NCBI RefSeq assembly: GCF_030296015.1
Contig: NZ_AP027368.1
Span: 1,550,001 to 1,614,000 of the forward strand
Source: Ferrimonas sp. YFM
Lineage (GTDB): Bacteria > Pseudomonadota > Gammaproteobacteria > Enterobacterales > Shewanellaceae
Direction: 5' to 3'
DNA: 64,000 nt
Part shown: positions 46,890-64,000 of the stretch, in pieces
Layout: each line of letters opens with the position of its first letter
Numbering within the stretch: the stretch's first letter is position 1
Position numbers and translations under genes: made by a program
The notes under the pieces: generated by a model
What the model was told of the DNA's origin: nothing
Database searches by the model: none
Seen by the model: the letters and a program-made list of their open reading frames with translations, nothing else

Positions 46890-47519
46890 TTATAAAGGTC
46901 TGAATTTCAAGTTAGTACAGATGGAAGGCTTGAGCAAACTGTCGCCGCATACCAGGCTGGCACTCACTCCGGTAACCGGGGACCAGCAAAGGGCCCAGGA
47001 ATCCAAGCAGAGGAAGGGGTCGGAATTCGAGGGGATATTTATTTCGCCAATTTTCTTGATCAGGTCGGGCGTTATATCTTGCGTTGCCTTAAAGGTCGCT
47101 TCGTATAGGCACCAACGAGGAAATAGTTGATCTTTTGGCCATTTAAGGTATTCGGCATACTGGTGGAGTTTATTATTTTTTTCTAATTGAATATCCACCC
47201 CTATGGCAGTATTCAGGCACAGGGCGACGGCGACGAACTGGCCGGTGTGGCTGATGGAGATTCGCCAGTCGGAATCCAGGAATCTGGGCTGCCCAGAGGG
47301 GGTGTGGCACCAGGTGTCTGGCAGCTCACCATCGCTGTTAAGTTCGCCAAACAGAGCTTTGACCGCATCTCTTTGTTGTTCTTTTAATTTCTTGGTGTTT
47401 AACGGCGCTGAAAATTCAGCCAGACCCACTCTAATCTTCTGGCATTTTGTGATTACGGACCTATTTAGAGTTATTGTCATCGCTGGTGACTCTGATTCAG
47501 AGGCCTCTTGTTGTAACAT
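46890..47519 (-). CDS. 4'-phosphopantetheinyl transferase of the aryl polyene cluster
   Basis: About 209 residues with the Sfp/EntD motifs: ISISHTGQFVAVAL, GVDIQ (Mg2+ site) and WCLYEATFKA (the W-x-x-KEA-x-K block). It would attach the phosphopantetheine arm to the two acyl carrier proteins of the operon that starts 67 bases away on the other strand. The gene is visibly more AT-rich than its neighbours, a hint of separate origin. Start unsure: ATG 47519 or ATG 47480, neither with a good ribosome-binding site. Confidence 0.8.
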   Translation of the reverse strand: MLQQEASESESPAMTITLNRSVITKCQKIRVGLAEFSAPLNTKKLKEQQRDAVKALFGELNSDGELPDTWCHTPSGQPRFLDSDWRISISHTGQFVAVALCLNTAIGVDIQLEKNNKLHQYAEYLKWPKDQLFPRWCLYEATFKATQDITPDLIKKIGEINIPSNSDPFLCLDSWALCWSPVTGVSASLVCGDSLLKPSICTNLKFRPL

Positions 47520-47586
47520 ATGTAAAAAAAGGCTATGGTAGCGCGCGCTTAGCGGCCTTTCGAATTTAATTTAAATCAAGAAAAAC
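47520..47586. promoter_or_regulatory. Divergent promoter region of the aryl polyene cluster
   Basis: The 67 bases between the transferase gene and the 18-gene operon are the only untranslated space before 63572 and so must hold both promoters, unless they lie in coding sequence. AT-rich sequence (TTTAATTTAAATC) precedes the operon. No clear -35/-10 pair could be fixed. Confidence 0.55.
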
Positions 47587-48279
47587 ATGAAGCAGATATT
47601 CCCTGTTCTGGAGTGGAAAGGGTGGTGTTCTGGGGGTTCCATGGATCTGGAATCACTGCCTGAGTATCCCTGGAAAGATGAAGGTGACGCACCTGTTGTC
47701 AGTGTGGTGCCTGCGATGCAGCGCCGCAGGCTCACTCGTCTGTCCAAAATGGCGCTTCATGTTGCTTCCTTCCTGGACGAGTCTCACGACCTGCCTTCGG
47801 TGTTCGCCTCTCAGCATGGCGAGGTGGCCCATACGATGACCATGTTAAATGGCATCTTTGCTGGTGAAGCCCCATCACCCACCAAGTTCAGCCAGTCAGT
47901 GCACAACTCCGCCTCGGGTGCCTACGGCATCCATTTCTCAAATCAGGCACCTTCCACCTCTATTGCGGCAGGGCGCGACACCCTGTTTTCCGCTCTGGTA
48001 GAGGCCCGGGCCATGCTCGAGCCGGGGAGGGATGTGCTGGTCATCTATGTGGATGTGCCTCTGCCGGAGCGATTTCGCGGCACCGAGGAGCCGGCGATCG
48101 CCCTGGGCATCAGGCTCTCTCTGAACGGCGTGCGTCAATTGGTGGCCGAAACCACCACAGACGCTCCAGAGCCCTGCGATCAGCCTGCCTGGCAGCTATT
48201 AAGTCTGCTGCATAAGGGCGAAGGGGAGTCTGTGGTGACTCAGGAGCGCCAGCGTGTGCGCTGGAGCCTGGAGTCATGA
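47587..48279 (+). CDS. apeC: Beta-ketoacyl synthase-like chain length factor
   Basis: The 230-residue protein is the short ketosynthase-like partner of APE clusters (ketoacyl-synt_2 type). It has VHNSASGAYGIHFSNQAPS, where a ketosynthase would have its active-site Cys; no such Cys is present, so it should be non-condensing and work as a heterodimer with the ApeO ketosynthase, as known for the Xenorhabdus system. It opens the operon and overlaps the next gene by 4 bases. Confidence 0.83.
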   Translation: MKQIFPVLEWKGWCSGGSMDLESLPEYPWKDEGDAPVVSVVPAMQRRRLTRLSKMALHVASFLDESHDLPSVFASQHGEVAHTMTMLNGIFAGEAPSPTKFSQSVHNSASGAYGIHFSNQAPSTSIAAGRDTLFSALVEARAMLEPGRDVLVIYVDVPLPERFRGTEEPAIALGIRLSLNGVRQLVAETTTDAPEPCDQPAWQLLSLLHKGEGESVVTQERQRVRWSLES

Positions 48280-49094
48280 TGGCGCAGCTCTATCATCTTT
48301 ATCGCATTGTGGTGACTGGCCTGAGCTTCACCCTCTTCGGGGTGGGCGGACTGGTGACCGGTCTGCTGTTTTTCCCTCTGCTGGCGATGCTGCCCGGGCA
48401 GCCCATGGTAAAGGAGCGCCGGGCCCAGCGGTGCGTGCATCTGATGTTTCGTGGTTTTGTCCGCTTCATGGAGTTGTTGTGGGTGACCCGGGTCCAGGTG
48501 GATAAGCCAGAACGTCTGGCTCAGGCCAAGGGGTGCATCATTATTGCCAATCATCCCTGCCTGCTGGATGTGGTGGTAATGATCTCCGTGGTGCCTCACA
48601 CCAACTGCATCGTCAAACAGTCCCTGCTGCGCAACCCGTTTATGCGCTGGGTGATCAAGGCGGCAGGCTACATTGCCAACGACGACCCTGAATCCGTGGT
48701 TCGGGACGCAAAAGAGCGTTTGGAGCGGGGTGACAACCTCATTGTGTTCCCAGAAGGCACCCGCACCACCCCCGACAATCCCGTGAGCATGCAGCGCGGG
48801 GCGGCAAGACTGATTTTACGTAACCGAGCGCCGGTGCTGCCGGTTACAATCCGTTGCACACCGACCACTTTGACTAAGGGAACACCTTGGTATCATGTGG
48901 CCCCCCGACGATTCATCATCGATCTCAGGGTGGGCGAACAGGTCATCTATGCCCCGGACCCAGAATTACCCGAGTCCCTCCAGGTACGGCAACTGACTCG
49001 TCGCCTGGAGGCTGGTTACAACATGGAGCTACACCCGAATGAGCGAATTGAAACTGGAATTGAAACAACTGATCATCGAGTCCTTAGAACTTGA
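48276..49094 (+). CDS. Lysophospholipid-type acyltransferase of the aryl polyene cluster
   Basis: The 272-residue protein has an N-terminal hydrophobic segment (about 10-40) and the PlsC motifs NHPCLLD with H93 and D98, and FPEGTRT (158-164). It belongs to the 1-acylglycerol-3-phosphate acyltransferase superfamily. In its position (as apeD in other APE loci) it probably transfers an acyl chain during assembly of the lipid carrying the polyene. Its last 56 bases overlap the following acyl carrier protein gene, an unusually long overlap. Confidence 0.85.
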   Translation: MMAQLYHLYRIVVTGLSFTLFGVGGLVTGLLFFPLLAMLPGQPMVKERRAQRCVHLMFRGFVRFMELLWVTRVQVDKPERLAQAKGCIIIANHPCLLDVVVMISVVPHTNCIVKQSLLRNPFMRWVIKAAGYIANDDPESVVRDAKERLERGDNLIVFPEGTRTTPDNPVSMQRGAARLILRNRAPVLPVTIRCTPTTLTKGTPWYHVAPRRFIIDLRVGEQVIYAPDPELPESLQVRQLTRRLEAGYNMELHPNERIETGIETTDHRVLRT

Positions 49095-49308
49095 AGAGAT
49101 CACCCCTGAAGAGATTGAATCTGACGAACCTCTGTTTGTTGAAGGCCTGGGACTGGACTCCATCGACGCCCTGGAGTTGGGCGTAGCCATCAAGAAACGA
49201 TACGGTGTGAAGCTGGATCCCAACGCCGAGGATACCCGCTCTCACTTCGCCAGTGTCACTGCACTGGCCAACTTTATCGAATCACAGAAGAAACAGGAGT
49301 CCCTGTAA
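49039..49308 (+). CDS. apeE: Acyl carrier protein 1 of the aryl polyene cluster
   Basis: The 89-residue carrier has its attachment serine S41 in GLGLDSIDALEL. In APE systems two carriers hold the starter aryl acid and the growing polyene. It is translated from inside the end of the acyltransferase gene and its stop overlaps the start of the second carrier. Confidence 0.9.
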   Translation: MSELKLELKQLIIESLELEEITPEEIESDEPLFVEGLGLDSIDALELGVAIKKRYGVKLDPNAEDTRSHFASVTALANFIESQKKQESL

Positions 49309-49556
49309 TGAGCCGCAGAGAGCAACTGCTTGCGGAACTGTCCGCCATCCTGATCGAAGAGTTTGAGATCGACGCCGATGACATTCAGCCGGACGCCAAC
49401 CTCTACGAAGACCTGGACCTGGACAGCATCGATGCTGTTGACCTGGTCATCAAGCTGCAACAATCCTCAGGCGTAAAGATTCAGCCCGAGGAGTTCAAGG
49501 CCGTGAGAACCGTCAATGACGTTCTGGACGCCCTGGAAAAACTGATTCCCGCGTGA
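49308..49556 (+). CDS. apeF: Acyl carrier protein 2 of the aryl polyene cluster
   Basis: The 82-residue carrier has S40 in DLDLDSIDAVDL. It is a distinct carrier, not a duplicate of the first: the sequence outside the motif differs widely, so the two probably have separate partners (starter and extension). Confidence 0.9.
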   Translation: MSRREQLLAELSAILIEEFEIDADDIQPDANLYEDLDLDSIDAVDLVIKLQQSSGVKIQPEEFKAVRTVNDVLDALEKLIPA

Positions 49557-50092
49557 TGAAACGCCTGTTGGCCGTGGTGGCAACCTTGCTGCTGCTGGCT
49601 TACCCCGTCCTGGTGTTCCTGTCGGTGAACCAGGGGGGCGGGATGATACTGGCCGCCCTCCTGTTTCTGGTGTTGGCGGCCAGAGCGATTCTGGCCCCGG
49701 CGGGCAGCAGATTGTTGCCGCTGGCCGGGTGTGCCTTGGTGGTGCTCTACGGCGTGACCCGTCAGGACCAGGTGCTGATGTGGTATCCGGTGTTGGTGAA
49801 CCTGGTGATGCTGGTGACCTTCGCCCTGACGTTGAAACGGGGCCCCAGCATGATTGAACGTTTCGCTCGCTTACGCCACCCCAATCTGCCCGAGGCTGCC
49901 CGGCCCTATCTGGAGCGGGTGACCCAGGTCTGGTGCGGGTTTTTCGTGATCAATGGCAGCCTGGCGCTGGCGACCGTAGTGATGGGAAATCTGCAGTGGT
50001 GGGCCATCTACAATGGCCTGATCTCTTATGTATTGATGGGGACACTTATGGCCGGTGAATGGCTGGTGCGTCCCAAGCACGAGGCGGTGTAA
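49556..50092 (+). CDS. COG4648-type membrane protein of the aryl polyene cluster
   Basis: The 178-residue protein has five or six hydrophobic segments and the conserved block RLRHPNLPEAARPYLERVTQ, followed by WCGFFVINGSLAL. This family is found in APE and related pigment loci, in the apeG place, and is often misnamed. Its role is unknown; a membrane partner of the synthase or export genes is inferred. ATG 49556 overlaps the carrier stop (TGATG). Confidence 0.85.
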   Translation: MKRLLAVVATLLLLAYPVLVFLSVNQGGGMILAALLFLVLAARAILAPAGSRLLPLAGCALVVLYGVTRQDQVLMWYPVLVNLVMLVTFALTLKRGPSMIERFARLRHPNLPEAARPYLERVTQVWCGFFVINGSLALATVVMGNLQWWAIYNGLISYVLMGTLMAGEWLVRPKHEAV

Positions 50093-51399
50093 TGAGGTTA
50101 AGTATCGGTCAGGCACTGATGCGAGATGACAGTGTCAGCTGTGTGCTCACCGACGAGGGTAGCATTGATCTTGACCAGTTGCGCATCGACATCGCTCGGG
50201 TTCAGAGTTCTGTGCCGGCAGGGATAAGCCGGGTCATGCTGCACAGTGAGTGCAGCGGCGTTTTCCTGGTGCGCCTGCTCGCCCTGCTGGGTCTCGGCGT
50301 TGAGGTGGTGCTGCCCGCCAATGGTCAACCCGATACCCTGGCCAAACTGGCCACAGAACACCAGCTGCAGATGGACGATGACTGGCAGCCCAATGCTGGC
50401 CAGCCTGAGCCCCTTCGCTGGAGCCAGCAGGGCAGGCTGAGGCTGTTCACCTCCGGCAGCAGCGGGGATGCCAAGCCGGTGGAAAAGACCCTGGAGCAGA
50501 TAGAAGCGGAGCTGGGCGCCCTTGAACAGATGTTTGGCGCTCAGTTGGCCGGCAGCACCCTGATCGCCAGTGTGTCGCACCAGCACATCTATGGCCTGCT
50601 GTTTCGTGTACTCTGGCCCTTTGTCAGCGGTCGTCCCTTTCTGGCTCAGACCCTGCTCTACCCTGAGTGCATAGAGGGCGCGCTGTTGCGCCACGCCCCT
50701 GCGGTTCTGGTGGCCAGCCCTTCGGTATTGGAGCGCTGGGATCTGGACGGACGCGGTGTGCCGCGCCTGGCCTTCAGCTCAGGGGGCCCCTTGGCCCGTC
50801 CGGCTGCCGTTGCCCGAGCCCAGGCCTGGGGACAAGGGGTGGTCGAGATCTATGGCAGCACCGAAACCGGGGGCATCGCCCGGCGTCAGGCTTCCTGCGC
50901 TCAACCAGAGCCTGCCTGGCAGCCCTTTCCCGGGGTGGAAACCCGGATTGAGGCCCAGCGGCTACGGCTTCGCTCCGCCTTCATTGATCCCCAGGGCTGG
51001 TACCTTACCGATGATCTGGTGGAGCCGACGCCAGAGGGGTTTTGCCTCATCGGCCGGGCAGACCGCACGGTCAAGTTGGCGGAGAAACGGGTCAATCTGG
51101 TGGCCATGGAGCGAGCCCTGGAGTCGTCCGTCCTGGTTCGCAAGGCGGCCCTGGTGATGCTGCCTGGTCGCCGTGCCCAGCTGGGGGCGGCGCTGGAGCT
51201 GACCGCCGCCGGTCAACAAGCCCTGGCAGACATGGGCCACCGGGGACTGTCAGAGAAACTGAAGCTGGCCCTGATCGGCGAGTTCGAACGGGTCACCCTG
51301 CCGAGACGTTGGCGCTATCGGCAACAACTGCCCTACAACAGTCAGGGCAAGTTGCCCAGGACCGCTTTATTGGAGCTTTTTGATGTTAACCAAGGTTGA
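50092..51399 (+). CDS. apeH: AMP-dependent acyl/aryl-ACP ligase of the aryl polyene cluster
   Basis: The 435-residue adenylating enzyme has the phosphate loop TSGSSGDAKPVEK and YGSTETGG, followed by DRTVKLAEKRVNL (hinge) and a C-terminal catalytic-Lys region QGKLPRTAL. It would activate the aryl starter acid, 4-hydroxybenzoate or a cinnamate, and load it on a carrier protein. It is shorter than typical acyl-CoA ligases, with a reduced N-terminal part, as usual for APE ligases. Start TAATG overlaps the preceding stop. Confidence 0.85.
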   Translation: MRLSIGQALMRDDSVSCVLTDEGSIDLDQLRIDIARVQSSVPAGISRVMLHSECSGVFLVRLLALLGLGVEVVLPANGQPDTLAKLATEHQLQMDDDWQPNAGQPEPLRWSQQGRLRLFTSGSSGDAKPVEKTLEQIEAELGALEQMFGAQLAGSTLIASVSHQHIYGLLFRVLWPFVSGRPFLAQTLLYPECIEGALLRHAPAVLVASPSVLERWDLDGRGVPRLAFSSGGPLARPAAVARAQAWGQGVVEIYGSTETGGIARRQASCAQPEPAWQPFPGVETRIEAQRLRLRSAFIDPQGWYLTDDLVEPTPEGFCLIGRADRTVKLAEKRVNLVAMERALESSVLVRKAALVMLPGRRAQLGAALELTAAGQQALADMGHRGLSEKLKLALIGEFERVTLPRRWRYRQQLPYNSQGKLPRTALLELFDVNQG

Positions 51400-51739
51400 C
51401 CCTATCTGGGTGGCCCATGCTCAGGACGGCCCTTTGCACAGCTTCGAGCTGACGATTCCACAAGACCTGGATTACTTTCGCGGTCATTTCAACGGTGCCC
51501 CGGTGTTGCCCGGGGTGGTGCAACTGCAGTGGGCGATCCGCAAGGCTCAGCAGACCTTCCAGATGGCGGAGTATTGTGCCCGCCTGGACGTGGTTAAATT
51601 CCAGCATCTGCAGTTGCCCGGACAGAGTGTCACTCTGGAGCTGGAACGGCTCGACGACACCCGGGTGCGTTTTGCCTATTTCAGTGGCGATAAACGCTAT
51701 TCCAGCGGTCGCATCGTGTTTGAAGCGGAGAGTGCATGA
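51383..51739 (+). CDS. apeI: 3-hydroxyacyl-ACP dehydratase, ApeI type
   Basis: The 118-residue hotdog protein has the FabA/FabZ-like block YFRGHFNGAPVLPGVVQLQW with the catalytic His35. It removes water during polyene formation, in described APE systems together with ApeP. ATG 51383 has GGAG 7 nt upstream and lies within the end of the ligase gene. Confidence 0.85.
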   Translation: MLTKVDPIWVAHAQDGPLHSFELTIPQDLDYFRGHFNGAPVLPGVVQLQWAIRKAQQTFQMAEYCARLDVVKFQHLQLPGQSVTLELERLDDTRVRFAYFSGDKRYSSGRIVFEAESA

Positions 51740-53400
51740 CGCCCTGCCTGCTGATCCCCCATTACAATCACAGCAAACAGCTGCCACCGGTGCTGGATTC
51801 CCTCGAGGGCCATGGCATCGACTGTGTGCTGGTGGACGACGGCTCGACCGAGGAACACCGTCAGGCGTTGGCGGCAATGATCTGCGACCGCCCCTGGGTC
51901 AAGCTGGTTCAGCGACCACAGAACGGCGGTAAAGGGGCCGCGGTCAAGACCGGCTTGCACTGGGCGTTCGAGCAGGGGTACAGCCACGCGATTCAGGTGG
52001 ATGCCGATGGCCAGCACGACCTGGGCGATCTTCCGGAGTTGTTGGCGCTGTGCCAGGCTCATCCCCAGGCGCTGATCACCGGCATTCCCCGTTATGATGA
52101 TTCAGTGCCTCGCCACCGCTATTGGGCCAGGTATCTGACCCATGTCTGGGTCTGGATCGAGACCCTGAGCCTGGAGCTCAAAGACACCATGTGCGGCTTC
52201 AGGGTCTACCCACTGGCTTCTGTGGTCGAGGTGCTGCGCAGCCAGAAGCTGGGGGACCGGATGGATTTCGATCCGGAGATCATGGTGCGCATGCACTGGC
52301 AGGGGGTTCCCTTTATTCAGCGCCCCACCAAGGTGATCTACCCGGAGCAGGGGCTGTCTCATTTCCGTGCCCTGCAAGACAACTGGCTGATCAGCAAGAT
52401 GCATACCCGTCTGGTGTTTGGCATGCTGTGGCGCGCGCCCAAGTTGTTGCTGCGCAAAGGCCGCAGCCGCCACTGGAGCAAGGCCTCTGAGCGTGGCGCC
52501 ATGTGGGGACTGAAGACTCTGCTGTGGCTCTATCGCCATGGTGGCCGCTGGCTGTGTCAGGGGTTTCTGCCCCTGCTGATTGGCTACTTTTACCTGACCG
52601 GGACTCAGGCCAGAAGCGCCTCCAGAGACTTCCTCTACCGCGTGGCCAAGGCCAAGCAGGGACCACAGGCACCCAGGCCGGGCCACTGGCAAAGCTACCG
52701 CCATTTCCTGAATTTCGGCCAGGCTGCCCTGGCCAAGCTGGACGCCTGGAGCGGAAGGCTGGATGTGGGGCCTGCTCAGTTCCCCAACCGACATCTGCTG
52801 GTGGAGCTGTTTGAGCAGCGCCGGGGAGCGGTGATTCTGACCGCCCATTTCGGCAATATCGAGATATTCCGGGCGGCGGCAGAGAGTCAGTTTAAACCCA
52901 GAATCAATGTGCTGGCCCTGACCAGTCATGCGGCCAAGTTCAACGCCATTCTCAAGGAGCTTAATCCGGAATCCCAGGTTGAGCTGCTTCAGGTGGACGA
53001 TCTTGGTGTGGAGACCGCCATGCTGCTGCAGGAGCGGGTCTCCAACGGTGAGCTGGTGATCATCGCCGGCGATAGAACCTCGGCCAGCAACTTTGGCCGA
53101 GTCCACTATGCGCCCTTCCTCGGGGCGCCGGCACCCTTCTCGGTGGGGCCCTATGTGCTCGCGTCCGTGCTGGAGTGCCCGGTCTACCTGATGTTGGGGC
53201 TGCCCACCCCCGAGCTTCATATGGAGAAGCTGTCAGATTCGCTCAAGGGACCGAGAAAAGAGCGGCAGGCGCAGATTGGCCGCTGCATAGACGACTATGC
53301 CGCCCGACTGGAGCGTGAGGTGCTCAAGCACCCGCTCCACTGGTTCAACTTTTATGATTTCTGGCTGCGGGATGATGCCCTGCAGCTGGATAAGGATTGA
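51736..53400 (+). CDS. Bifunctional glycosyltransferase family 2 / LpxL-type acyltransferase
   Basis: The 554-residue fusion starts with a GT2 domain (about 1-240; DDGS at 34-37 and the DADGQHD metal site at 89-95) and continues, after a hydrophobic linker near 265-290, with a lauroyl-acyltransferase-like domain (about 310-545; HFGNIE at 371-376 with the HxxxxE catalytic pair). It occupies the apeJ position. It could both glycosylate and acylate the lipid anchor of the polyene. ATGA overlap with apeI. Confidence 0.87.
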   Translation: MTPCLLIPHYNHSKQLPPVLDSLEGHGIDCVLVDDGSTEEHRQALAAMICDRPWVKLVQRPQNGGKGAAVKTGLHWAFEQGYSHAIQVDADGQHDLGDLPELLALCQAHPQALITGIPRYDDSVPRHRYWARYLTHVWVWIETLSLELKDTMCGFRVYPLASVVEVLRSQKLGDRMDFDPEIMVRMHWQGVPFIQRPTKVIYPEQGLSHFRALQDNWLISKMHTRLVFGMLWRAPKLLLRKGRSRHWSKASERGAMWGLKTLLWLYRHGGRWLCQGFLPLLIGYFYLTGTQARSASRDFLYRVAKAKQGPQAPRPGHWQSYRHFLNFGQAALAKLDAWSGRLDVGPAQFPNRHLLVELFEQRRGAVILTAHFGNIEIFRAAAESQFKPRINVLALTSHAAKFNAILKELNPESQVELLQVDDLGVETAMLLQERVSNGELVIIAGDRTSASNFGRVHYAPFLGAPAPFSVGPYVLASVLECPVYLMLGLPTPELHMEKLSDSLKGPRKERQAQIGRCIDDYAARLEREVLKHPLHWFNFYDFWLRDDALQLDKD

Positions 53401-53402
53401 TC

Positions 53403-54956: not shown

Positions 54957-55378
54957 TGAGTGGCTTGCCTTCTGCGATGGTCAGGGTGGAGGTGCCCTTT
55001 CACGACTGTGATCCCATGGGGATCACCTGGCACGGCAACTATCTGCGCTATTTCGAGCTGGCTCGCTGCGCCTTGCTGGATTCGTTCCAGTACAACTACC
55101 GGCAGATGGAGGAGTCGGGCTACCGCTGGCCCATCATCGATCTCAAGGTGCGCTACCCCCAGCCATCGACCTTCGAGCAGAAGCTTGAGGTCCATGCTGA
55201 GCTGGTGGAGTGGGAGCAGCGCCTGAAGATTCGCTACAAGGTTCTGGATGCCGACAGCGGTCGCCGCCTGGTCAAGGGGGAGACGGTGCAGGTGGCGGTG
55301 CACAATGAAACCGGTGAGATGTGTCTGGTGTCGCCCCAGGTATTACGAGAGAGGTTGTCTCCATGGCTCGATGGTTGA
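54956..55378 (+). CDS. Acyl-CoA/ACP thioesterase, 4HBT family
   Basis: The 140-residue hotdog thioesterase has FHDCDPMGITWHGNYLRYFE, with the catalytic Asp in the DxDPMG motif typical of 4-hydroxybenzoyl-CoA thioesterase relatives. It may release or edit the acyl chains of the pathway (apeK place). ATG overlaps the lyase stop (TGATG). Confidence 0.85.
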   Translation: MSGLPSAMVRVEVPFHDCDPMGITWHGNYLRYFELARCALLDSFQYNYRQMEESGYRWPIIDLKVRYPQPSTFEQKLEVHAELVEWEQRLKIRYKVLDADSGRRLVKGETVQVAVHNETGEMCLVSPQVLRERLSPWLDG

Positions 55379-55926
55379 TGCTGTTTCTGTTGCTGGCCCC
55401 CTCAGCCAGGGCTCTGGATCTGGGGGCATTGCAACGCCTGCTGGATACCGAGCAGCCGGTTCGGGGTCATTTCCAGCAATCCAAGACTCTGGCTTTTCTC
55501 TCCAAACCCATGGTGAGCGAAGGGGCCTACCTGATGGCGCCCGGGTTGGGATTGATCTGGGACCAGGCCACACCCTGGCCTCAGGAGATGATTCTCAGCC
55601 AGGGAAAGTTAACCATGGATGGCGAGACGGTAGAGATGCAGGCGGGGCCCTTCGCTCCGGTGATTGCGGCCTTGATGCAGGGGCAGCTGGAGACCCTCAG
55701 GGAACACTTTACCCTGGCCGGAGAGGGCAGCCTGGAAAGCTGGCGCCTCCATCTGGTGCCCAGGGCTGAACCAATGATCCAGCTGTTCAGTGCCATTGAG
55801 ATTCGCGGTGAGCAGCAGCGGGTTCTCGGGCTCACCCTGACCGACACCGCCGCCCAACCCACTGAGATTCGTTTCAGCGACATCCATTTCGGTGAACTGA
55901 AGGAGGATGAGCGTGCTCGCTTCTGA
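55363..55926 (+). CDS. LolA-like outer-membrane carrier protein of the aryl polyene cluster
   Basis: The 187-residue protein has a signal peptide (cleavage after SARA) and LolA-like blocks RGHFQQSKTLAFLSKPMVSE and a glutamine-rich core. It is quite different from the housekeeping LolA at 26754. Such copies accompany APE clusters and probably carry the aryl polyene lipid, not lipoproteins, across the periplasm. AGAGAGG precedes ATG 55363, inside the thioesterase end. Confidence 0.83.
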   Translation: MARWLMLFLLLAPSARALDLGALQRLLDTEQPVRGHFQQSKTLAFLSKPMVSEGAYLMAPGLGLIWDQATPWPQEMILSQGKLTMDGETVEMQAGPFAPVIAALMQGQLETLREHFTLAGEGSLESWRLHLVPRAEPMIQLFSAIEIRGEQQRVLGLTLTDTAAQPTEIRFSDIHFGELKEDERARF

Positions 55927-58225
55927 GCGAACTCACCTCTCCACAGGCCGGGGCTGGATGCTCTGGCTGGGCTTACTGCTGCTGCTGTTCTCGGCGGCGG
56001 CCGTTCGCCTGGAATTCCGCCTCCCCAGGCTGGACACGGAGATCACCGCCCTGTTGCCCAGCGCCGATGACTCCAGCCCGGCCACCCAAGTGCTGGAGCA
56101 GATGGCGGCGTCCGGCGCCAATACCCTGTTCCTGATGCTGGAGGGTACCGACACCGCACAAACGCGCCAGGCCCTGGAGACACTGGTTCCGTCATTGGAG
56201 CGGGCCGGACTCACTTTGGTGGCCCCGGGCAGTGAGCAGCAGCTTGCCCTGGGAAAGGCACTGTTTCCCTATCGGTTTGGTCTGCTCAGTGACCAGGCCC
56301 GCACCAGGCTCAATCAGGACGATCCCCAGCTGTGGCTCAAGCCTCTGCTGCGTGCCCTGGCGACGCCAGGAACCACACCGGCGGCGGGTCTGATCAGTCA
56401 GGACCCCCTGCTGTTGTTCCCTGACTACCTCTCCTCGCTGGCGGGATCCCAGGGCAACTGGCATCCGGGCCCCCTGGCCCTGGAGAGGCCCTGGGAGGAC
56501 AGGCAACTGTTGCTGAGCCAGTGGCAGGTTGAGGGCAGCGCCTTTGACATGGGGCGGCAACAGAGCGTGCTCGACCAACTGGCCCAATTTGAATCGGCGA
56601 ACCCGCAGATCCGCCTTAGCCGTGTCGGTGTGTTGTTCCACGCCGCCGAGGCGGCCCGCTCGGCCCGTCAAGAGATGACCTGGCTGGGCAGCGCCTCACT
56701 ACTCATGGTGGTGCTGCTCTCCTGGTTGGCGTTCCGGCGCCTGATGCCTCTGGCCTGGTTGCTGCTGGTGGTGGGCTCGAGCATGTCGGTGGGGGTTCTC
56801 GCCTGCCTGTTGCTGCTGGGCGAACTGCATGCCATCACCCTGGTGTTTGGCACCACCTTAGTCGGTGTGGCGGTGGACTATACCCTGCATCTGAGCTGCC
56901 ACGGTGCCGGTAACAGTCGCCGGGCGGCATCGATGCTGCGCCGTCCCATGGCTCTGGCCCTGATCAGCTCCTGCCTGGCCTACCTGGTGATGCTGTTGCT
57001 GCCCTTCCCCGGCCTGAAGCAGATGGCGGTGTTCTCTGTGGCCGGTCTGTGCTGGGCCTTTGTGACGGTTCAGTGGATGCCCGCAATGGGGTTTGATTCC
57101 CCCAGCCTGGCACCAGGGCTGGTGCCCAGGGCCGGCGCCCTGGCGCACGCCACCCGCCGCCTGACCGGTTCGACCCTGTTCTGGGCACCCCTGCTGGCGC
57201 TGACGTTGACCGGGCTCAGCCGCCTCGGGGTGGACGACGATATTCGTCATCTTCAGCACAGTGATCCCCAGCTGTTGTCTCAGCAGGACAGGGTGCAGAC
57301 CCTGCTGTCTCAGCCGGACCAGAGTCGCATGTTGCTGGTGGAAGGGGCGACGGCAGAGCAGGTTCTTCAGATTGAAGAGGCACTGAACACCAGGCTGGAT
57401 ACGCTGGTGACCTCCGGGGCTTTGACCGGATACCGGGGGGTGTCCGCGTCCTTGCCCTCCCTGGCCCGGCAGAGGAGTGACCGGCAACTGCTGGCTCGGC
57501 GTTATCAGGACCCCGGGTTGGTGGCGATGATGCAGGGGATGGGGTTTGATCCCAAGATGTTGCCCCGGCTGTCTCAGGCCATTGAGCAGGCTCCGCTGCT
57601 GACTCCGGAACGCTGGTTGTCTCACGACGCCCTGGCGCCGCTGCAGATGCAGTGGCTGGGGCAGGGTGAGCAGGGCTGGCGGACTGTGGTGCTGCTTGAG
57701 GGTGTGCGTGACCTGGATGCCCTGAAGTCGCTGGCAGATGGCCGGGAGGTTCAGTACCTGGACAGGGTGGAGGACCTCAGTCAGTTTATGGCGCACTACC
57801 GGCTGGCATTGTCTGTGGTGATGGGGCTGATTCTGTTGGCGGCACTGCTGTTGGTGAGTCGCAGCTATGGCTTGGGAGCCGGGGTGCGCATTGTGGCAGC
57901 GCCAACGGTGTCGGCGCTCCTGGTTCTGGCGCTGTGGGGGCTGCTGGGAACCCCTGTCAACCTGTTTCACATGCTGGGTTTGCTGCTGATGTTTGGCATC
58001 GCCCTGGATCAATCCCTGTTTCTGGCGACCTGCGGGCCAGGTGAGCTGGGGCGCTGTGCCCTGGCCATCGGCCTGAGCGTGGTGTCCACCGTTGCCGCCT
58101 TCGGCATGCTGGGCCTGTCCCAGACGCCCGCCCTGGCGGCCTTCGGCCAAAGCCTGAGCCTTGGGTTACTGGCGGCCCTGGTGCTTTCCACCTTGGCCCT
58201 GACAAACGACAAGAAGGACAGTTAA
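55913..58225 (+). CDS. MMPL/RND-family exporter of the aryl polyene cluster
   Basis: About 770 residues with an N-terminal helix, a periplasmic domain, five helices (about 255-400), a second periplasmic domain and five more helices (about 630-765): the MMPL plan. The motif GTTLVGVAVDYTLHL carries the proton-relay Asp, and GIALDQSLFLA is its C-terminal counterpart. It probably extracts the finished lipid from the inner membrane and passes it to the LolA-like carrier. GTG 55913 lies 6 nt after AGGAGG; ATG 55907 directly abuts that site and is less likely. Confidence 0.87.
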   Translation: MLASERTHLSTGRGWMLWLGLLLLLFSAAAVRLEFRLPRLDTEITALLPSADDSSPATQVLEQMAASGANTLFLMLEGTDTAQTRQALETLVPSLERAGLTLVAPGSEQQLALGKALFPYRFGLLSDQARTRLNQDDPQLWLKPLLRALATPGTTPAAGLISQDPLLLFPDYLSSLAGSQGNWHPGPLALERPWEDRQLLLSQWQVEGSAFDMGRQQSVLDQLAQFESANPQIRLSRVGVLFHAAEAARSARQEMTWLGSASLLMVVLLSWLAFRRLMPLAWLLLVVGSSMSVGVLACLLLLGELHAITLVFGTTLVGVAVDYTLHLSCHGAGNSRRAASMLRRPMALALISSCLAYLVMLLLPFPGLKQMAVFSVAGLCWAFVTVQWMPAMGFDSPSLAPGLVPRAGALAHATRRLTGSTLFWAPLLALTLTGLSRLGVDDDIRHLQHSDPQLLSQQDRVQTLLSQPDQSRMLLVEGATAEQVLQIEEALNTRLDTLVTSGALTGYRGVSASLPSLARQRSDRQLLARRYQDPGLVAMMQGMGFDPKMLPRLSQAIEQAPLLTPERWLSHDALAPLQMQWLGQGEQGWRTVVLLEGVRDLDALKSLADGREVQYLDRVEDLSQFMAHYRLALSVVMGLILLAALLLVSRSYGLGAGVRIVAAPTVSALLVLALWGLLGTPVNLFHMLGLLLMFGIALDQSLFLATCGPGELGRCALAIGLSVVSTVAAFGMLGLSQTPALAAFGQSLSLGLLAALVLSTLALTNDKKDS

Positions 58226-58227
58226 CG

Positions 58228-59445
58228 ATGCACACGGAGAAGCGCACCCTGGTGGTGATCGGTGCCGGCCCCTCCGGCGCCCTGGTGAGCGCCCTGATGA
58301 AGCAGCAGGGGCGCGATGTGGTGGTGCTGGAGCGGGATCAGTTTCCCCGGTTCTCCATCGGAGAGAGCCTGCTTCCCCAATGCATGGCCTTTATGGAACA
58401 GGCGGGCTTACTGGGCGCGGTGGAGCAGGGGGGCTATCAGCATAAGAACGGCGCGGCCTTTGCCTGGGGCGATCGCTACACCGAGTTCGATTTCCGCGAG
58501 AAGTTCTCTGCGGGCCCCGGCACCACCTACCAGGTGCCCAGGGCCGACTTCGACAAGCGCCTTGCCGACGCCGCTGAGGCTCAGGGGGTGGAGATTCGTT
58601 ATGGTCACACCCTGGTGGATGTGACCCTGGAGCAGCAGGGAGCCAGCCTGGTGGTTGAGGCTGATGGCCAGAGGTATCGCATTGAGTGCGATTTCGTTCT
58701 GGATGCCAGCGGTTTTGGCCGTGTGCTGCCCAGGCTGCTTGATCTCGAGCGACCCTCAGACTTTCCGTCGCGACGGGCCATCTTCACCCACATCCAGGAC
58801 AACGCCGACGGCCGCTTTGATCGCAACAAAATTCTGATTACTGTCCACCCCGAGCACCAGGATCTGTGGTTCTGGCTGATCCCCTTCTCCGACGGTCGCG
58901 CTTCGGTCGGCGTGGTGGGGGAGGAGCACTTCTTCAAAGAGGGGGTGCCCTGGGAGGAACAACTCAAGGCTTGGGTGGCGGCGACACCCAGCCTGGCCTT
59001 GGTACTGGCCGACAGTCAGTTCGACCGTCCGGTTCAGAGCCTCAAGGGCTATTCGGCCGACGTCACCACCCTGGCAGACCGGCGTTTTGCGCTCCTGGGC
59101 AACGCCGGTGAGTTCCTCGACCCCGTATTCTCCTCCGGCGTCACCATCGCCATGAAGTCTGCGGTGCTGGCCGCCCAGGTGCTGGGAGAACAACTGGACG
59201 GCCGCAGCGTAGACTGGCAACAGCGGTATGCCCGGCCGCTTCAGCAAGGGGTCAACACCTTCAAGACCTACGTCAAAGCCTGGTATCGGGGGGATTTTCA
59301 GACGTTGATGTTCCACCCCAACCCCAACCAGGAGATCCGTGATATGGTCAGTGCCATTCTTGCCGGCTACGCCTGGGACCGGGAAAACCCTCTGGTTCGC
59401 GAGAGTGAGCGTCGTCTGACGGCCTTGGTGGAGTTGTGTCGATGA
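58228..59445 (+). CDS. FAD-dependent halogenase/monooxygenase-like protein of the aryl polyene cluster
   Basis: The 405-residue flavoprotein has the FAD site GAGPSG (12-17), RFSIGESLLP, and GNAGEFLDPVFSSGV (291-305). WFWLIP (214-219) fits the WxWxIP signature of flavin-dependent halogenases, and K73 in HKNGAAFAWG fits the region of their catalytic Lys. It may therefore halogenate the aryl head; some relatives with the same fold are hydroxylases or reductases without halogenase activity, so the reaction is unproven. Gap of 2 bases from the exporter, ATGA overlap with the next gene. Confidence 0.78.
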   Translation: MHTEKRTLVVIGAGPSGALVSALMKQQGRDVVVLERDQFPRFSIGESLLPQCMAFMEQAGLLGAVEQGGYQHKNGAAFAWGDRYTEFDFREKFSAGPGTTYQVPRADFDKRLADAAEAQGVEIRYGHTLVDVTLEQQGASLVVEADGQRYRIECDFVLDASGFGRVLPRLLDLERPSDFPSRRAIFTHIQDNADGRFDRNKILITVHPEHQDLWFWLIPFSDGRASVGVVGEEHFFKEGVPWEEQLKAWVAATPSLALVLADSQFDRPVQSLKGYSADVTTLADRRFALLGNAGEFLDPVFSSGVTIAMKSAVLAAQVLGEQLDGRSVDWQQRYARPLQQGVNTFKTYVKAWYRGDFQTLMFHPNPNQEIRDMVSAILAGYAWDRENPLVRESERRLTALVELCR

Positions 59446-59999
59446 AGCAGACTCTGGTGCTGTTGATGGCCCTGCTCCTGAACGGGTGCGCCTTGCTCAA
59501 GGGGGAGACCTGCCCCTACCTGGCACCAGGGGTTGGTTATTGTCTGTTGTCGCCCACAGAGGTGGCGAGTCAGAGGCAGATTGAGAAGATCGCCATCGAG
59601 ATACCGGGCGCGCCGAAAATGACGCTCCACGGTGTACGTGAAAACACCCCGGGAACCATGGTGCTGGCGGCCACCGGAGCCGCTGGCCAGATCAGCTTGT
59701 CAGTGAAGTGGGACGGCCAGCAGTTGGCCTCCCAAAGCAGTGGTTTGCCGGACTCCCTAGACCCGGCCTGGTTGCTGGCCCTGGTTCAGCTGAGCGAAGC
59801 CCCCCTTGCCGAGGTGGAGACGGCCCTCAGCGGGGCGGGTTTGACCGAAAGCAGCAGCGGCGAGCTGAGGCAGCGTGAGTTATGGCAGGGCAGTGAACGG
59901 CTGATGACCCTGAGTCACTCTCACGACTACACCCGGGTAGAGCACCACAGGTATGGACTGACTATGACCATCACTACTTTGAGTCGGGAGGCACTGTGA
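59442..59999 (+). CDS. DUF3261 lipoprotein of the aryl polyene cluster
   Basis: The 185-residue protein has a lipoprotein signal with lipobox LNGC (Cys16) and a DUF3261 domain. By analogy with LolB, a lipoprotein acceptor in the outer membrane for the cargo of the LolA-like protein is a reasonable inference. ATG 59442 has the ATGA overlap with the preceding stop. Confidence 0.78.
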   Translation: MKQTLVLLMALLLNGCALLKGETCPYLAPGVGYCLLSPTEVASQRQIEKIAIEIPGAPKMTLHGVRENTPGTMVLAATGAAGQISLSVKWDGQQLASQSSGLPDSLDPAWLLALVQLSEAPLAEVETALSGAGLTESSSGELRQRELWQGSERLMTLSHSHDYTRVEHHRYGLTMTITTLSREAL

Positions 60000-61177
60000 A
60001 CAGCTATCGATTGAGTGCTCCGGCTCTCTTTACTTCCCTTGGGCTGGATGTCCAGTCTCTGGTGGACCGGGTGCTTGGCAGCCGCCAGCCCGTCATGACC
60101 GCATCGGACAGCTTCAGCGGGGAGCGCAGTTATGTGGTGGGCCAGGCGCCGGCCCTGGAGACGCCCCTTCCGCAGCCACTGGCCCACTGGGATTGCCGGA
60201 ACAACCGCATGCTGGCGGCCTGTTGCGATCAGATCTCTTCCCAGATAGAGGCGCTGAAGACCCAGTACGGCAATGACGCCATTGCGGTGATTCTGGGCAC
60301 CTCGACCTCGGGCATCGAGGAGTATGAACTGACCCTTGCCGAGGAGCAGGCCGGTCAGTCGGTGCGCGACTACCACTACCGAAAACAGGAGATGGGCACC
60401 GCCGCCCTGTTTGTGGCAGAGCGGTTTGAACTCCAGGGCTGTGCCTACACGGTGTCGACGGCCTGCTCGTCGGCCGCGAAGGCGATGGCTTCTGCCGCCA
60501 GGCTGCTGGATGCTGGCCTGGCCGATGCGGTGATCTGTGGCGGAAGTGACAGCCTGTGCAGGCTGACCGTCAATGGTTTTGATGCCCTGGAGTCCTACTC
60601 AGACAACCAGTGTTCGCCGTTAACCCAGGGGCGCGATGGCATCAACATCGGCGAAGCCGCGGTGCTGTTTGTGATGACCCGAGAGCCCGGAGGCATTCGC
60701 CTGACCGGGACCGGCGAGAGCAGTGATGCCCACCATGTATCGGCTCCCCACCCGGAGGGCCGGGGCGCCGAAGCCGCGATGCGTCAGGCGCTGCAATCAG
60801 CCTCCCTGCAGCCTGAGCAGCTGGATTACATCAATCTCCATGGCACCGGCACCCCACTGAATGACAAGATGGAGTGCGCCGCCATCGAGCGTGTGTGTGG
60901 CGACAGGGTACCGGTGAGCAGCACCAAGACGCTGACCGGACATACCCTGGGAGTCGCGGGTGCCTTGGAAGCCGCCCTGTGCTGGGGCCTGCTCAGTGAC
61001 TGTAACCCTGAACGCAAGCTGCCGCCTCAGTTGCTGTTTGGGGAGAAGGATGCCGAATTGGCTCAGGTTCGTCTGGCCGATGAGCAGGACAGGTTGCCTG
61101 CAGGCGGCCGCATTTTAAGTAACTCTTTTGCCTTTGGTGGCAGCAACATAGCCCTTATATTGGAGCGAGAAAGCTAA
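59996..61177 (+). CDS. apeO: Beta-ketoacyl-ACP synthase, ApeO type
   Basis: The 393-residue condensing enzyme has the full thiolase-fold triad: Cys157 in STACSSAAKAM, His282 in LHGTGTPLND and His316 in KTLTGHTLG. In the studied APE system the matching enzyme forms a heterodimer with the chain-length-factor-like ApeC. The start is GTG 59996, with GTGA overlap. Confidence 0.88.
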   Translation: MNSYRLSAPALFTSLGLDVQSLVDRVLGSRQPVMTASDSFSGERSYVVGQAPALETPLPQPLAHWDCRNNRMLAACCDQISSQIEALKTQYGNDAIAVILGTSTSGIEEYELTLAEEQAGQSVRDYHYRKQEMGTAALFVAERFELQGCAYTVSTACSSAAKAMASAARLLDAGLADAVICGGSDSLCRLTVNGFDALESYSDNQCSPLTQGRDGINIGEAAVLFVMTREPGGIRLTGTGESSDAHHVSAPHPEGRGAEAAMRQALQSASLQPEQLDYINLHGTGTPLNDKMECAAIERVCGDRVPVSSTKTLTGHTLGVAGALEAALCWGLLSDCNPERKLPPQLLFGEKDAELAQVRLADEQDRLPAGGRILSNSFAFGGSNIALILERES

Positions 61178-61179
61178 TC

Positions 61180-61632
61180 ATGACCCACCCCCTTTCTCAA
61201 TACCTGCCCCATGATGAGCCGATGATTCTCATCGATGAGCTGGTGTCCCATGAGACCGAGAGCCTGAGCTGTAAGGTGACCCTGAGCGAAGACTCTCCCT
61301 TCTATGACCCTGACACCCGACGGGTGCCCGAATGGGTGGGCATGGAGTATATGGCCCAGACCGTGGCCGCCCTCGCCGGTGTGGAAGCCCGGGCAAGAGG
61401 GGAGGAGGTGCGCATTGGTTTTCTGCTGGGCACCCGAAAATATCAGGTTCATGAGCGTGCCTTTGCCCTCAACACGCCCTACATCATCCGGGTAGAACGC
61501 CTCTATCAGGACGAGGACGGCATGGCCAACTTTCAGTGCGATATTTTCCGGGAGCAAAGCCCGGTGGCCAGCGCCAGAATCAATGTTTTTCAGCCTAATA
61601 ACGTTAATGAATTTCTAGGAATCCCCTCATGA
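61180..61632 (+). CDS. apeP: 3-hydroxyacyl-ACP dehydratase, ApeP type
   Basis: The 150-residue hotdog protein has the ApeP/FabZ-like pattern YLPHDEPMILIDEL, EYMAQTVAALAG and GFLLGTRKYQ. It works with ApeI in forming the conjugated double bonds. It lies 2 bases after apeO and has a 4-base overlap with apeQ. Confidence 0.86.
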   Translation: MTHPLSQYLPHDEPMILIDELVSHETESLSCKVTLSEDSPFYDPDTRRVPEWVGMEYMAQTVAALAGVEARARGEEVRIGFLLGTRKYQVHERAFALNTPYIIRVERLYQDEDGMANFQCDIFREQSPVASARINVFQPNNVNEFLGIPS

Positions 61633-62354
61633 CACGACGCATATTAATCACCGGTGCCAGCCGGGGAATCGGACGTGCCATCGCTCTGAAGCTGGCCGGT
61701 CCCGATGTCGAACTGGTGCTTCACTATCACAGCAACAGCGCCGCCGCCGAGGCGGTGGCCCAGGAAGCCGAGCAGCAGGGCAGCCGAGTCACCTTGGTGA
61801 GCTTCGATCTGGCCGATGGCGAGGCCTGTCGACACGCACTGGAACAGGACATGGAGCACCATGGTGCCTACTATGGCGTGGTATGCAACGCAGGCATCAG
61901 CGACGATGCCGCCTTCCCGGCCATGTCAGAGGAGAGCTGGGATAAGGTGCTGCGCACCAACCTGGACGGTTTCTATCATGTGGTGCACCCGATAGTGATG
62001 CCCATGGTCCAGAGCCGCAAAGGTGGTCGTATCGTTACCCTGTCCTCCCTCTCCGGGGTGGCAGGCAATCGCGGTCAGGTCAACTACAGCGCCGCCAAGG
62101 CAGGCATCATCGGTGCCACCAAGGCGCTGGCTCTGGAGCTGGCCAAGCGAAAGATCACCGTGAACTGCGTGGCCCCGGGCCTCATCGAAACCGACATGAC
62201 CGAGGCTCTGGACGAAAAGATGCTCAAGGATCAGATCCCGGCACGTCGCTTCGGAAAACCGGATGAGGTGGCTGCGGCAGTGGCCTTCCTCATGAGCGAT
62301 GATGCCGCCTACATCACCCGCCAGGTGATCTCGGTGAATGGAGGCATGCTGTGA
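61629..62354 (+). CDS. apeQ: 3-oxoacyl-ACP reductase, FabG/ApeQ type
   Basis: The 241-residue short-chain dehydrogenase has the NADPH site TGASRGIGRAIAL, NAG in VVCNAGISD, and the catalytic Ser-Tyr-Lys with NYSAAKAG. It reduces each beta-keto intermediate before dehydration. Start ATGA overlap with apeP. Confidence 0.9.
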   Translation: MTRRILITGASRGIGRAIALKLAGPDVELVLHYHSNSAAAEAVAQEAEQQGSRVTLVSFDLADGEACRHALEQDMEHHGAYYGVVCNAGISDDAAFPAMSEESWDKVLRTNLDGFYHVVHPIVMPMVQSRKGGRIVTLSSLSGVAGNRGQVNYSAAKAGIIGATKALALELAKRKITVNCVAPGLIETDMTEALDEKMLKDQIPARRFGKPDEVAAAVAFLMSDDAAYITRQVISVNGGML

Positions 62355-63571
62355 AGCGGGTTGTCGTCACCGGCATGGCCGGTATCTCCCCCATAGGCCA
62401 GGACTGGCCGAGCATTCAGGCGCGCATGGCCGCAGGTCAGAACGCGGTGGTGCGTATGGACGAGTGGGACTGCGCCGAGCAGATGCATACCCGTCTGGCT
62501 TGCCCTGTGACCGATTTTGAGAAGCCCGCCCACTACAAACGCAAAGCGGTTCGCTCCATGGGGCGGGTGTCTCTGATGGCTACGGCGGCCACCGAGCGCG
62601 CCCTCGACGATGCCGGCCTGCTGGGAGACCCGGTTATCCAAAGTGGCGCCATGGGGGTCGCTTATGGTTCCTCTACCGGCTCTACGGATCCCATCAAGGC
62701 GTTTGGCCGCCTGCTCAATGACGGTGATATGACCGGGGTGACGGCCACCAGCTACATTCAGATGATGGCCCACACCACCGCGGTCAATGTCGGGGTATTC
62801 TTCGGTCTGAAAGGGCGGGTTCACACCACCTCCAGCGCCTGTACCTCGGGAAGTCAGGCCATAGGTTACGCCTTTGAGGCGATCCGCAGCGGGCGGCAGA
62901 CCATGATGGTGGCCGGCGGCGCCGAGGAGCTGTGTATCTCTGAGGCGGCGGTGTTCGACACCCTGTTCGCCACCAGCACCCGAAACGATCAGCCGCAGCA
63001 GAGCCCGCGCCCCTTCGATAAGGACAGGGATGGCTTGGTGATTGGCGAAGGAGCCTGCACCCTGATTCTGGAGGAGCGGGAGCACGCTTTGGCTCGCGGG
63101 GCCACCATCTACGCTGAAGTGCTGGGTTTTGGCACCAACAGTGATGGCCTGCACGTGACTCAGCCTAACCAGGAAACCATGGCGGTGGCCATGCAGCAGG
63201 CGTTGGATGACGCCAGCCTGGGGGCAGAGGACATAGGTTACGTCTGTGCCCATGGCACCGCCACCGACCGGGGTGATGTGGCCGAGAGCCAGGCCACCGC
63301 GGCTGTACTGGGCCGCAAGCCCATCAGTTCCCTGAAAAGCTACGTCGGTCATACCCTGGGAGCCTGTGGTGCCCTGGAAGCCTGGTGGAGCATCGAGATG
63401 ATGCGACAAGGCTGGTTTGCCCCCACCATCAATCTGGACGAGGTTGACGAGCTGTGTGGTGACCTGGACTACATCACCGGATCGGGCCGTCAGATGGCGG
63501 TAGACAAGGTGATGAGCAATAACTTCGCTTTTGGCGGCATCAATACGTCACTGATTTTTGCTCGCCCGTAA
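62351..63571 (+). CDS. apeR: Beta-ketoacyl-ACP synthase, ApeR type
   Basis: The 406-residue FabF-like condensing enzyme has Cys164 in TTSSACTSGSQAIG, His301 in CAHGTATDRGD and His334 in YVGHTLGACG. It is the second active ketosynthase and may carry out the first condensation with the aryl starter or act on its own homodimer. It is the last gene of the packed 18-gene series; GTG start with GTGA overlap. Confidence 0.9.
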   Translation: MKRVVVTGMAGISPIGQDWPSIQARMAAGQNAVVRMDEWDCAEQMHTRLACPVTDFEKPAHYKRKAVRSMGRVSLMATAATERALDDAGLLGDPVIQSGAMGVAYGSSTGSTDPIKAFGRLLNDGDMTGVTATSYIQMMAHTTAVNVGVFFGLKGRVHTTSSACTSGSQAIGYAFEAIRSGRQTMMVAGGAEELCISEAAVFDTLFATSTRNDQPQQSPRPFDKDRDGLVIGEGACTLILEEREHALARGATIYAEVLGFGTNSDGLHVTQPNQETMAVAMQQALDDASLGAEDIGYVCAHGTATDRGDVAESQATAAVLGRKPISSLKSYVGHTLGACGALEAWWSIEMMRQGWFAPTINLDEVDELCGDLDYITGSGRQMAVDKVMSNNFAFGGINTSLIFARP

Positions 63572-63577
63572 CACCGG

Positions 63578-63599
63578 GTGCCCCGGACTGCCGGGGCAC
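63578..63599 (+). other. Strong hairpin after apeR
   Basis: A 9-bp stem GTGCCCCGG/CCGGGGCAC with a 4-nt loop lies 6 bases after the apeR stop. No T run follows directly (five T come 9 bases later), so it may be a weak terminator, an attenuator or an mRNA 3'-stabilising hairpin, with the next gene possibly still in the transcript. Confidence 0.55.
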
Positions 63600-63625
63600 G
63601 CCCACTGCTTTTTAGGGATTATGCT

Positions 63626-64000
63626 GTGCCCCACCTGATCTTGGTATCCGCCAATCGTTTTACTACCCCCTATCCCGTCTACCCTCTGGGATTGAGCTAT
63701 CTGAAGAGCTACCTCAATCGGGAGTGGCCCGATCTCAGAGTGTCTCTGATTGACATGAACATGATGGAAGAGTCGGAGCTTACTCAGAGGATTCAGGCGT
63801 TGGCCCCGGATTATGTCGCCGTCTCTTTGCGCAACATTGATGATGTGGACCAGATTCATAAACGCAGCTTTGTCGAGGGCTACGGCGAGGTGATTCAGGC
63901 CATCCGCAGGGGCTCCCAGGCCCCCATTGTCCTCGGTGGTGCCGGCTATTCTCTGTTTCCCGAGCGGTTGCTGGCTGAGCTCCAGGGGGATTACGGCTTG
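63626..64000 (+). CDS. B12-binding radical SAM-type protein, N-terminal part
   Basis: The first 125 codons are visible; the window ends inside the gene. GTG 63626 follows TAGGGAT at a suitable distance. The sequence looks like the N-terminal Rossmann-like cobalamin-binding domain that precedes the radical SAM barrel in many B12-dependent enzymes: YPLGLSYLKSYLNREWP, then APDYVAVSLRNIDDVDQ and APIVLGGAGYSLFPERLL. The cysteine motif CxxxCxxC that would prove radical SAM chemistry lies beyond the edge. It is on the APE strand, 54 bases after apeR, so a role in modifying the pigment or in a neighbouring lipid pathway is possible. Confidence 0.7.
   Translation, partial: MPHLILVSANRFTTPYPVYPLGLSYLKSYLNREWPDLRVSLIDMNMMEESELTQRIQALAPDYVAVSLRNIDDVDQIHKRSFVEGYGEVIQAIRRGSQAPIVLGGAGYSLFPERLLAELQGDYGL

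Follow-up and report, generated by a model that had tools for sequence, protein, structure and literature searches.

A B12-binding radical SAM gene behind the aryl polyene operon of Ferrimonas, a candidate for C-methylation of the pigment

Which genes set the aryl polyene (APE) operon of Ferrimonas sp. YFM apart from other APE operons, and what might they do to the product? The operon lies at the end of the window, by which we mean the whole analysed stretch of 64,000 nucleotides (bases 1550001-1614000 of a single-contig genome of 4.66 Mb). A first-pass annotation had pointed to three genes as non-standard, namely an ammonia-lyase gene, a gene for a halogenase-like flavoprotein, and a downstream gene for a B12-binding radical S-adenosylmethionine (SAM) protein, and had suggested that the product may have an unusual head or tail. 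The comparison with other loci confirmed only the last of the three genes as unusual. An unusual head or tail can still be argued for from this B12 gene, but no longer from the lyase and flavoprotein, both of which are common.

A TIGR04072 gene behind apeR

The B12 gene runs past the window edge, and its end was read from the genome. Its product scored above the 360-bit cut-off of the NCBIfam family TIGR04072. The next closest families, both below their cut-offs, were BzaD (181 bits), which we take to methylate a benzimidazole ring, and tryptophan 2-C-methyltransferase (108 bits). The distribution of the family was followed in two samples. The sample of relatives comprised 60 genomes including the window's own, 28 of which carry the APE marker PF22817. 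TIGR04072 exceeded its cut-off in five of the 60, the five Ferrimonas genomes with PF22817, and in none of the nine Ferrimonas genomes without APE genes or the 23 other APE-bearing relatives. The second sample was spread across the class and comprised 185 genomes. Fifteen of them exceeded the PF22817 cut-off besides the window's own (of 19 genomes, the window's own and three whose ApeP match fell short of the cut-off were left out), and none of the 15 reached the TIGR04072 cut-off, the only matches being three weak ones of 82-93 bits. Of the APE-bearing gammaproteobacteria searched, this genus alone thus has TIGR04072 above its cut-off, which makes the B12 gene the non-standard part of the operon. 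Searched against plasmids, the B12 protein showed at most 27% identity among the matches listed (best 10 of 79 records).

In all five APE-bearing Ferrimonas genomes the B12 gene is the next gene after apeR, and its product is 63-90% identical between species (88% between the window and F. futtsuensis). The gene call of the first-pass annotation stood, with both domains present. A GTG at 63629, rather than 63578, is the probable start, because it lines up in the five species and is preceded by AGGGA in four, and it leaves a gap of 57 bases after apeR. In F. senticii the frame of the B12 gene overlaps the apeR stop, whereas in the other four species the conserved start lies 53-57 bases after apeR; a further ATG is found at the apeR stop of F. 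futtsuensis. Behind the B12 gene follows a gene of 251 amino acids (L006:3117-3872), which in six loci of one sister genus (L082, L083, L086, L089, L092, L093) is found directly after apeR, as if the B12 gene had been inserted into an arrangement that predates it. The 251-residue protein matched no Pfam family above its cut-off and is possibly the product of an unrecognised APE-linked gene. In another relative (L091), the same slot is taken by the ApeB methyltransferase, 17 bases after apeR.

An AlphaFold model of the B12 protein (29 sequences, pLDDT 90.9, pTM 0.90) was closest to TsrM (TM 0.87-0.88), a tryptophan C2-methyltransferase according to its record name, followed by MgmA, OxsB, AprD4, CysS and TokK (TM 0.64-0.73). 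The B12-binding domain, the CxxxCxxC cluster and the TsrM-like predicted fold are the features of a class B (B12) radical SAM methyltransferase. We suggest, at a probability of about 0.45, that the window contains a complete APE operon of the lyase-plus-flavoprotein subtype, to which a TIGR04072 B12 enzyme has been added that C-methylates the product, most probably on its aryl head. The head would be a likelier target of this C-methylation than the chain.

Gene content and order, conservation, family assignment and the predicted fold were established directly; from them we infer what the lyase, flavoprotein and radical SAM enzyme catalyse in Ferrimonas. The roles of the Ape proteins follow E. 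coli and Xenorhabdus, as given in the accessible part of PMC8253772. An aromatic amino acid would be converted by the ammonia-lyase to an aryl acid, which ApeH would load onto an acyl carrier protein (ACP). ApeR would then start the chain and ApeO/ApeC would extend it, with reduction by ApeQ and dehydration by ApeI and ApeP. The flavoprotein may oxidise or halogenate the head, and the enzyme encoded at the operon end may methylate it. ApeD, J, L, M and N would attach and export the finished APE. Word searches of APE papers, including one on APE ketosynthases, retrieved nothing on these genes, and among the ten matches listed no title concerned Ferrimonas pigments.

The operon and its lyase and flavoprotein

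According to open reading frames and Pfam matches, 18 genes are tightly packed on the forward strand between 47587 and 63571 (Table 1). Neighbours overlap by 1-58 bases or are separated by a 2-base gap, in agreement with the close spacing reported earlier. The order from apeC to apeR is that of E. coli CFT073, with the lyase and flavoprotein genes as additions; that it follows described APE loci had been claimed before and is borne out by Pfam and by similarity to CFT073, where 15 genes were matched by tblastn and apeN through its DUF3261 annotation only. The apeA and apeB genes of E. coli are absent from the Ferrimonas operon. Its core content, as predicted from sequence, is that of an APE gene cluster: ketosynthase (KS) and chain-length factor (CLF), two ACPs, aryl-ACP ligase, ketoreductase (KR), two dehydratases, exporter, LolA-like protein, DUF3261 protein and acyltransferases. 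Upstream of apeC, a frame of 209 amino acids (46890-47519, reverse strand) matched no Pfam or NCBIfam family and is not counted as part of the operon.

Table 1. Features of the aryl polyene operon and of the gene behind it (window positions)
Feature	Position	Strand	Basis
apeC, chain-length factor (KS-like)	47587..48279	+	PF13723, E 2.6e-48; 27% to CFT073, order same
apeD, lysophospholipid acyltransferase	48276..49094	+	PF01553; 40% to CFT073
apeE, acyl carrier protein (true start may be later)	49039..49308	+	PF00550; DSI site
apeF, acyl carrier protein	49308..49556	+	PF00550; DSI site
apeG, COG4648-type protein by homology	49553..50092	+	47% to CFT073 ApeG; no Pfam match
apeH, aryl-ACP synthetase (AMP-binding)	50059..51399	+	PF00501; best NCBIfam match 4-coumarate-CoA ligase, 79.8 bits, below cut-off
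apeI, dehydratase	51380..51739	+	PF22818, ApeI-like
apeJ, glycosyltransferase/acyltransferase fusion	51736..53400	+	PF00535; PF03279 below cut-off; 46% to CFT073
APE-type aromatic amino acid ammonia-lyase (MIO)	53397..54956	+	PF00221, E 1.7e-159; RFHGCG and ASG motifs
apeK, 4HBT thioesterase	54956..55378	+	PF13279
apeL, LolA-like	55321..55926	+	PF19574
apeM, RND/MMPL-type exporter	55907..58225	+	30% to CFT073 ApeM; HpnN below cut-off; no Pfam match
Halogenase-like FAD protein	58228..59445	+	PF04820, E 3.5e-22; Lys, WxWxIP, FLDPVFSSG; closest solved structure 3nix
apeN, DUF3261/LolB-like	59436..59999	+	PF11659
apeO, ketosynthase	59996..61177	+	PF00109/PF02801
apeP, dehydratase	61180..61632	+	PF22817, ApeP-like
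apeQ, ketoreductase	61629..62354	+	PF13561; 59% to CFT073
apeR, initiating ketosynthase	62351..63571	+	PF00109; 63% to CFT073
G+C-rich hairpin between apeR and B12 gene	63578..63599	+	gap segment folds at -26.1 kcal/mol
B12-binding radical SAM protein, TIGR04072	63629..64975 (window ends at 64000)	+	B12-binding and Radical_SAM domains; 397.7 bits

The lyase gene is real, but its frame opens with a TTG at 53397 rather than at 53403 as first called; the flavoprotein gene was confirmed at its called start. In order to judge how common the two genes are, we compared the APE regions of the other 27 PF22817-bearing genomes among the relatives. Two of these regions, L095 and L096, lie on contigs of only 6173 and 3192 bases; without them, 25 near-complete loci (L070-L094) remained. 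The lyase gene was found between apeJ and apeK in 23 of the 25 (missing from L074 and L094), the flavoprotein gene after apeM in 16 (missing from L074-L081 and L091), and both together in 15. Without the four Ferrimonas loci, the fractions are 19/21 for the lyase and 12/21 for the flavoprotein. The L094 locus is rearranged: apeH has two matches there, placed around apeI and apeG. In the 15 class-wide genomes, a lyase of 59-63% identity was present within about 10 kb of apeP in eight, a flavoprotein within about 5 kb in seven (on the opposite strand in G108), and both in four; matches of 34% identity farther from apeP, a lyase at 12 kb in G207 and a flavoprotein at 15 kb in G099, were disregarded. 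Both genes stand in the same places in annotated loci of Pseudoalteromonas donghaensis and Acinetobacter baumannii, and a Cupriavidus campinensis locus has the flavoprotein but no lyase within the stretch examined. Halogenase genes are missing from the Lysobacter enzymogenes and Xylella fastidiosa examples in Figure 5 of Zhou et al. (2013), within the available part of that paper (PMC3691225).

The claim that the lyase and flavoprotein genes are non-standard was therefore refuted by the gene-set comparison, and we rejected rare insertions as an explanation of their presence. E. coli CFT073 lacks both, and seven of the 15 class-wide genomes lack a lyase and eight a flavoprotein near apeP, as one would expect of insertions that make this APE unusual; yet many relatives, and distant genera as well, have both genes in identical places, with uniform motifs, which leaves that view almost certainly wrong. 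The two genes instead mark common APE subtypes.

The lyase has the features of an APE-type ammonia-lyase, namely PF00221, the ASG of the MIO group and an R[FY]HGCG motif. The ASG is retained in all 26 aligned APE-locus lyases, the window's included, and the selectivity pair, which presumably governs the choice of amino acid, is F-H in 25 and Y-H in one. The scores for named NCBIfam equivalogs remained below the cut-offs (hutH, 376.7 vs 539 bits; FlxA, 317 vs 700; BagA/FevW, 420.5 vs 1000). A stray HutH was considered and rejected, since a separate PF00221 paralogue (L001) scores higher and the operon lyase has the RFHGCG motif. The genome also encodes two more paralogues of the aromatic lyase family (G000:C1:4352460-4353929 and 3515026-3516504) whose aligned stretch lacks the ASG triad. 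A literature search pairing aryl polyene with ammonia lyase gave no title on APE biosynthesis.

The flavoprotein belongs to PF04820 (79.3 vs 21 bits) and did not reach the cut-off of the CmlS equivalog (160.8 vs 900 bits). The closest solved structure is 3nix, followed by CmlS. A lysine that aligns with halogenases (CmlS and 3e1t), WxWxIP and FLDPVFSSG are conserved in all 21 aligned flavoproteins, again including the window's. We assume that the lysine and the WxWxIP motif have roles in halogenases, and by sequence the flavoprotein is a possible halogenase.

A whole-genome search of all 28 APE-bearing genomes, the window's own among them, with E. coli ApeB found no ApeB in the five APE-bearing Ferrimonas genomes. 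It was present in 13 of the 23 others, adjoining the APE locus in eight (G017, G021, G036, G039, G043, G045, G054, G055) and elsewhere in the genome in five that all belong to one genus (G026, G029, G030, G033, G035). Across the 25 loci, eight had ApeB only, 16 the flavoprotein only, one neither and none both, with L081 the sole flavoprotein-free locus out of nine to lack ApeB. E. coli CFT073, which has ApeB and no flavoprotein, fits this mutual exclusion. The pattern suggests two head-tailoring subtypes, that is, two ways of finishing the aryl head, and it could serve as a simple guide for predicting APE structures.

Aryl head, polyene chain or unrelated neighbour

A pattern-based scan of genome contigs, with the five-sequence Ferrimonas alignment as query, placed relatives of the B12 protein in a second phylum. 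It returned 29 loci, four from Ferrimonas and 25 others with 42-48% identity (24 Bacteroidota by title, one "uncultured bacterium"). Homologues of APE/flexirubin-type genes lie near the B12 gene in 23 of these 25, although no more than two or three such homologues were seen in six of them. In L121 (Bacteroidales bacterium CF), picked as a complete genome, the neighbours are a lyase, KR, KS, acyltransferase, KS, CLF-like protein, polysaccharide deacetylase, LolA and glycosyltransferase. The L121 lyase, the only one scanned for this purpose, is FlxA (828 vs 700 bits), and all ten lyases aligned from non-Ferrimonas B12 loci have S-H at the selectivity pair. In an unrooted tree, the Ferrimonas B12 proteins are set apart from those of Bacteroidota by a long branch. 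A sample of 296 Bacteroidota genomes, with at most 5 candidates scored per genome, contained one above the TIGR04072 cut-off, which is the seed genome, and one more at 272.6 bits. Literature pairing flexirubin with radical SAM was not found, and radical SAM enzymes do not figure in the available portions of the papers on celluxanthene and flavoaffinin.

Several observations weigh against methylation of the aryl head. TIGR04072 is named for ladderane lipid clusters, which involve no aryl head and would point to the chain, and the fold group of the B12 protein also holds OxsB and AprD4, which we take to be non-methylating enzymes. Two of the Bacteroidota loci, L113 and L115, lie outside any pigment cluster, which possibly reflects a second role of the protein. 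The B12 copies there (L113:9983-11344, L115:9992-11353) adjoin a conserved protein of about 600 amino acids. In ten of the 23 other APE-bearing relatives, both ApeB and a TIGR04072 protein above cut-off are missing. Furthermore, the lack of ApeB in Ferrimonas is in itself no reason to expect a replacement, because the flavoprotein subtype gives that anyway, and the idea that the B12 gene is present only to replace ApeB is thus weakened. The exclusion of ApeB and flavoprotein lowered our probability for the suggested methylation from 0.5 to 0.45 and raised that of action on the chain slightly. The genus is also a single lineage, so that five occurrences in five genomes may go back to one event. 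Finally, in four of the five species (window, L070, L071, L072) apeR and the B12 gene are separated by a G+C-rich hairpin, perhaps an attenuator or the terminator that once closed the operon. TTTT directly follows the stem in L070 and L071.

The hairpin would suit an ordinary APE operon with the B12 gene as a neighbour without a role in the pigment, as would the APE loci and genomes without the gene. However, across 14 genomes of the genus the gene co-occurs with APE, it directly follows apeR in five of five with 63-90% identity between species, and its family is linked with flexirubin/APE-type genes in another phylum, so that we consider a mere neighbour quite improbable. Action on the polyene chain is unlikely to a lesser degree; it could consist of C-methylation, cyclisation or some other rearrangement by radical chemistry, in line with proposals for the ladderane pathway. 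The family name, rSAM_ladder_B12, points that way, and Rattray 2009 (PMC2649909), in the part available, puts forward Kuste2803, a B12 radical SAM protein that may or may not belong to TIGR04072, as a candidate enzyme for cyclisations or oxidative cascades. A polyene bound to a carrier protein is common to the APE and flexirubin-type contexts, and the flavoprotein subtype may have a head-modifying step of its own already. On the other hand, expression of ladderane candidate genes including kuste2803 yielded no ladderanes, with the proteins undetected in first trials (PMC4790861, available part). Methylation of the aryl head is favoured over action on the chain by the closest family and fold matches, which include aromatic C-methylating enzymes. 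A broader proposal makes TIGR04072 a family of polyene-modifying radical enzymes common to aryl polyene, flexirubin and ladderane pathways, with the Ferrimonas chain methylated or cyclised. We regard it as a long shot, but if true, the Ferrimonas operon would be a tractable model for the unsolved ring-forming step of ladderanes.

Comparison with known systems

TsrM shares the fold with a B12-binding and a radical SAM domain with the Ferrimonas protein, but the two are only 22-23% identical, and we know of no link between TsrM and polyenes. Ladderane clusters are characterised by phytoene-desaturase-like and type II fatty acid synthesis genes (PMC2649909 and PMC4790861, as far as available), none of which occurred among the scanned operon proteins. 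The clusters for xanthomonadin and arcuflavin resemble the Ferrimonas operon as aryl polyene clusters with a halogenase gene but differ in their starter, which comes from an XanB2-type chorismatase (available text of PMC3691225 and PMC3949708). In a word search, the terms "ammonia" and "radical SAM" were absent from the main text of PMC3949708. The E. coli CFT073 cluster (PMC8253772, accessible part) has apeA and apeB, but no lyase, flavoprotein or B12 gene.

The closest counterparts in gene content are the loci of P. donghaensis (NZ_CP032091) and A. baumannii (CP035931), which have the same genes in the same order, with the lyase gene between apeJ and apeK and the flavoprotein gene between apeM and apeN. 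They differ in that apeJ is split into two genes, in that apeH and apeI form one frame in A. baumannii, and in what follows apeR: other genes stand there, and the stretch contains no B12 radical SAM gene. The lyase and the flavoprotein are thus normal parts of many APE operons, which clears a false lead and singles out one gene. This gene is shared with the flexirubin-type clusters of Bacteroidales that contain TIGR04072 (L121), together with the lyase, KR, KS, acyltransferase, CLF-like protein, LolA and glycosyltransferase, although gene order differs, the lyase is of FlxA type with an SH motif, and the B12 proteins are only 42-48% identical. If the B12 enzyme does modify APEs, TIGR04072, a family named for putative ladderane clusters, would gain a substrate class in cultivable bacteria.

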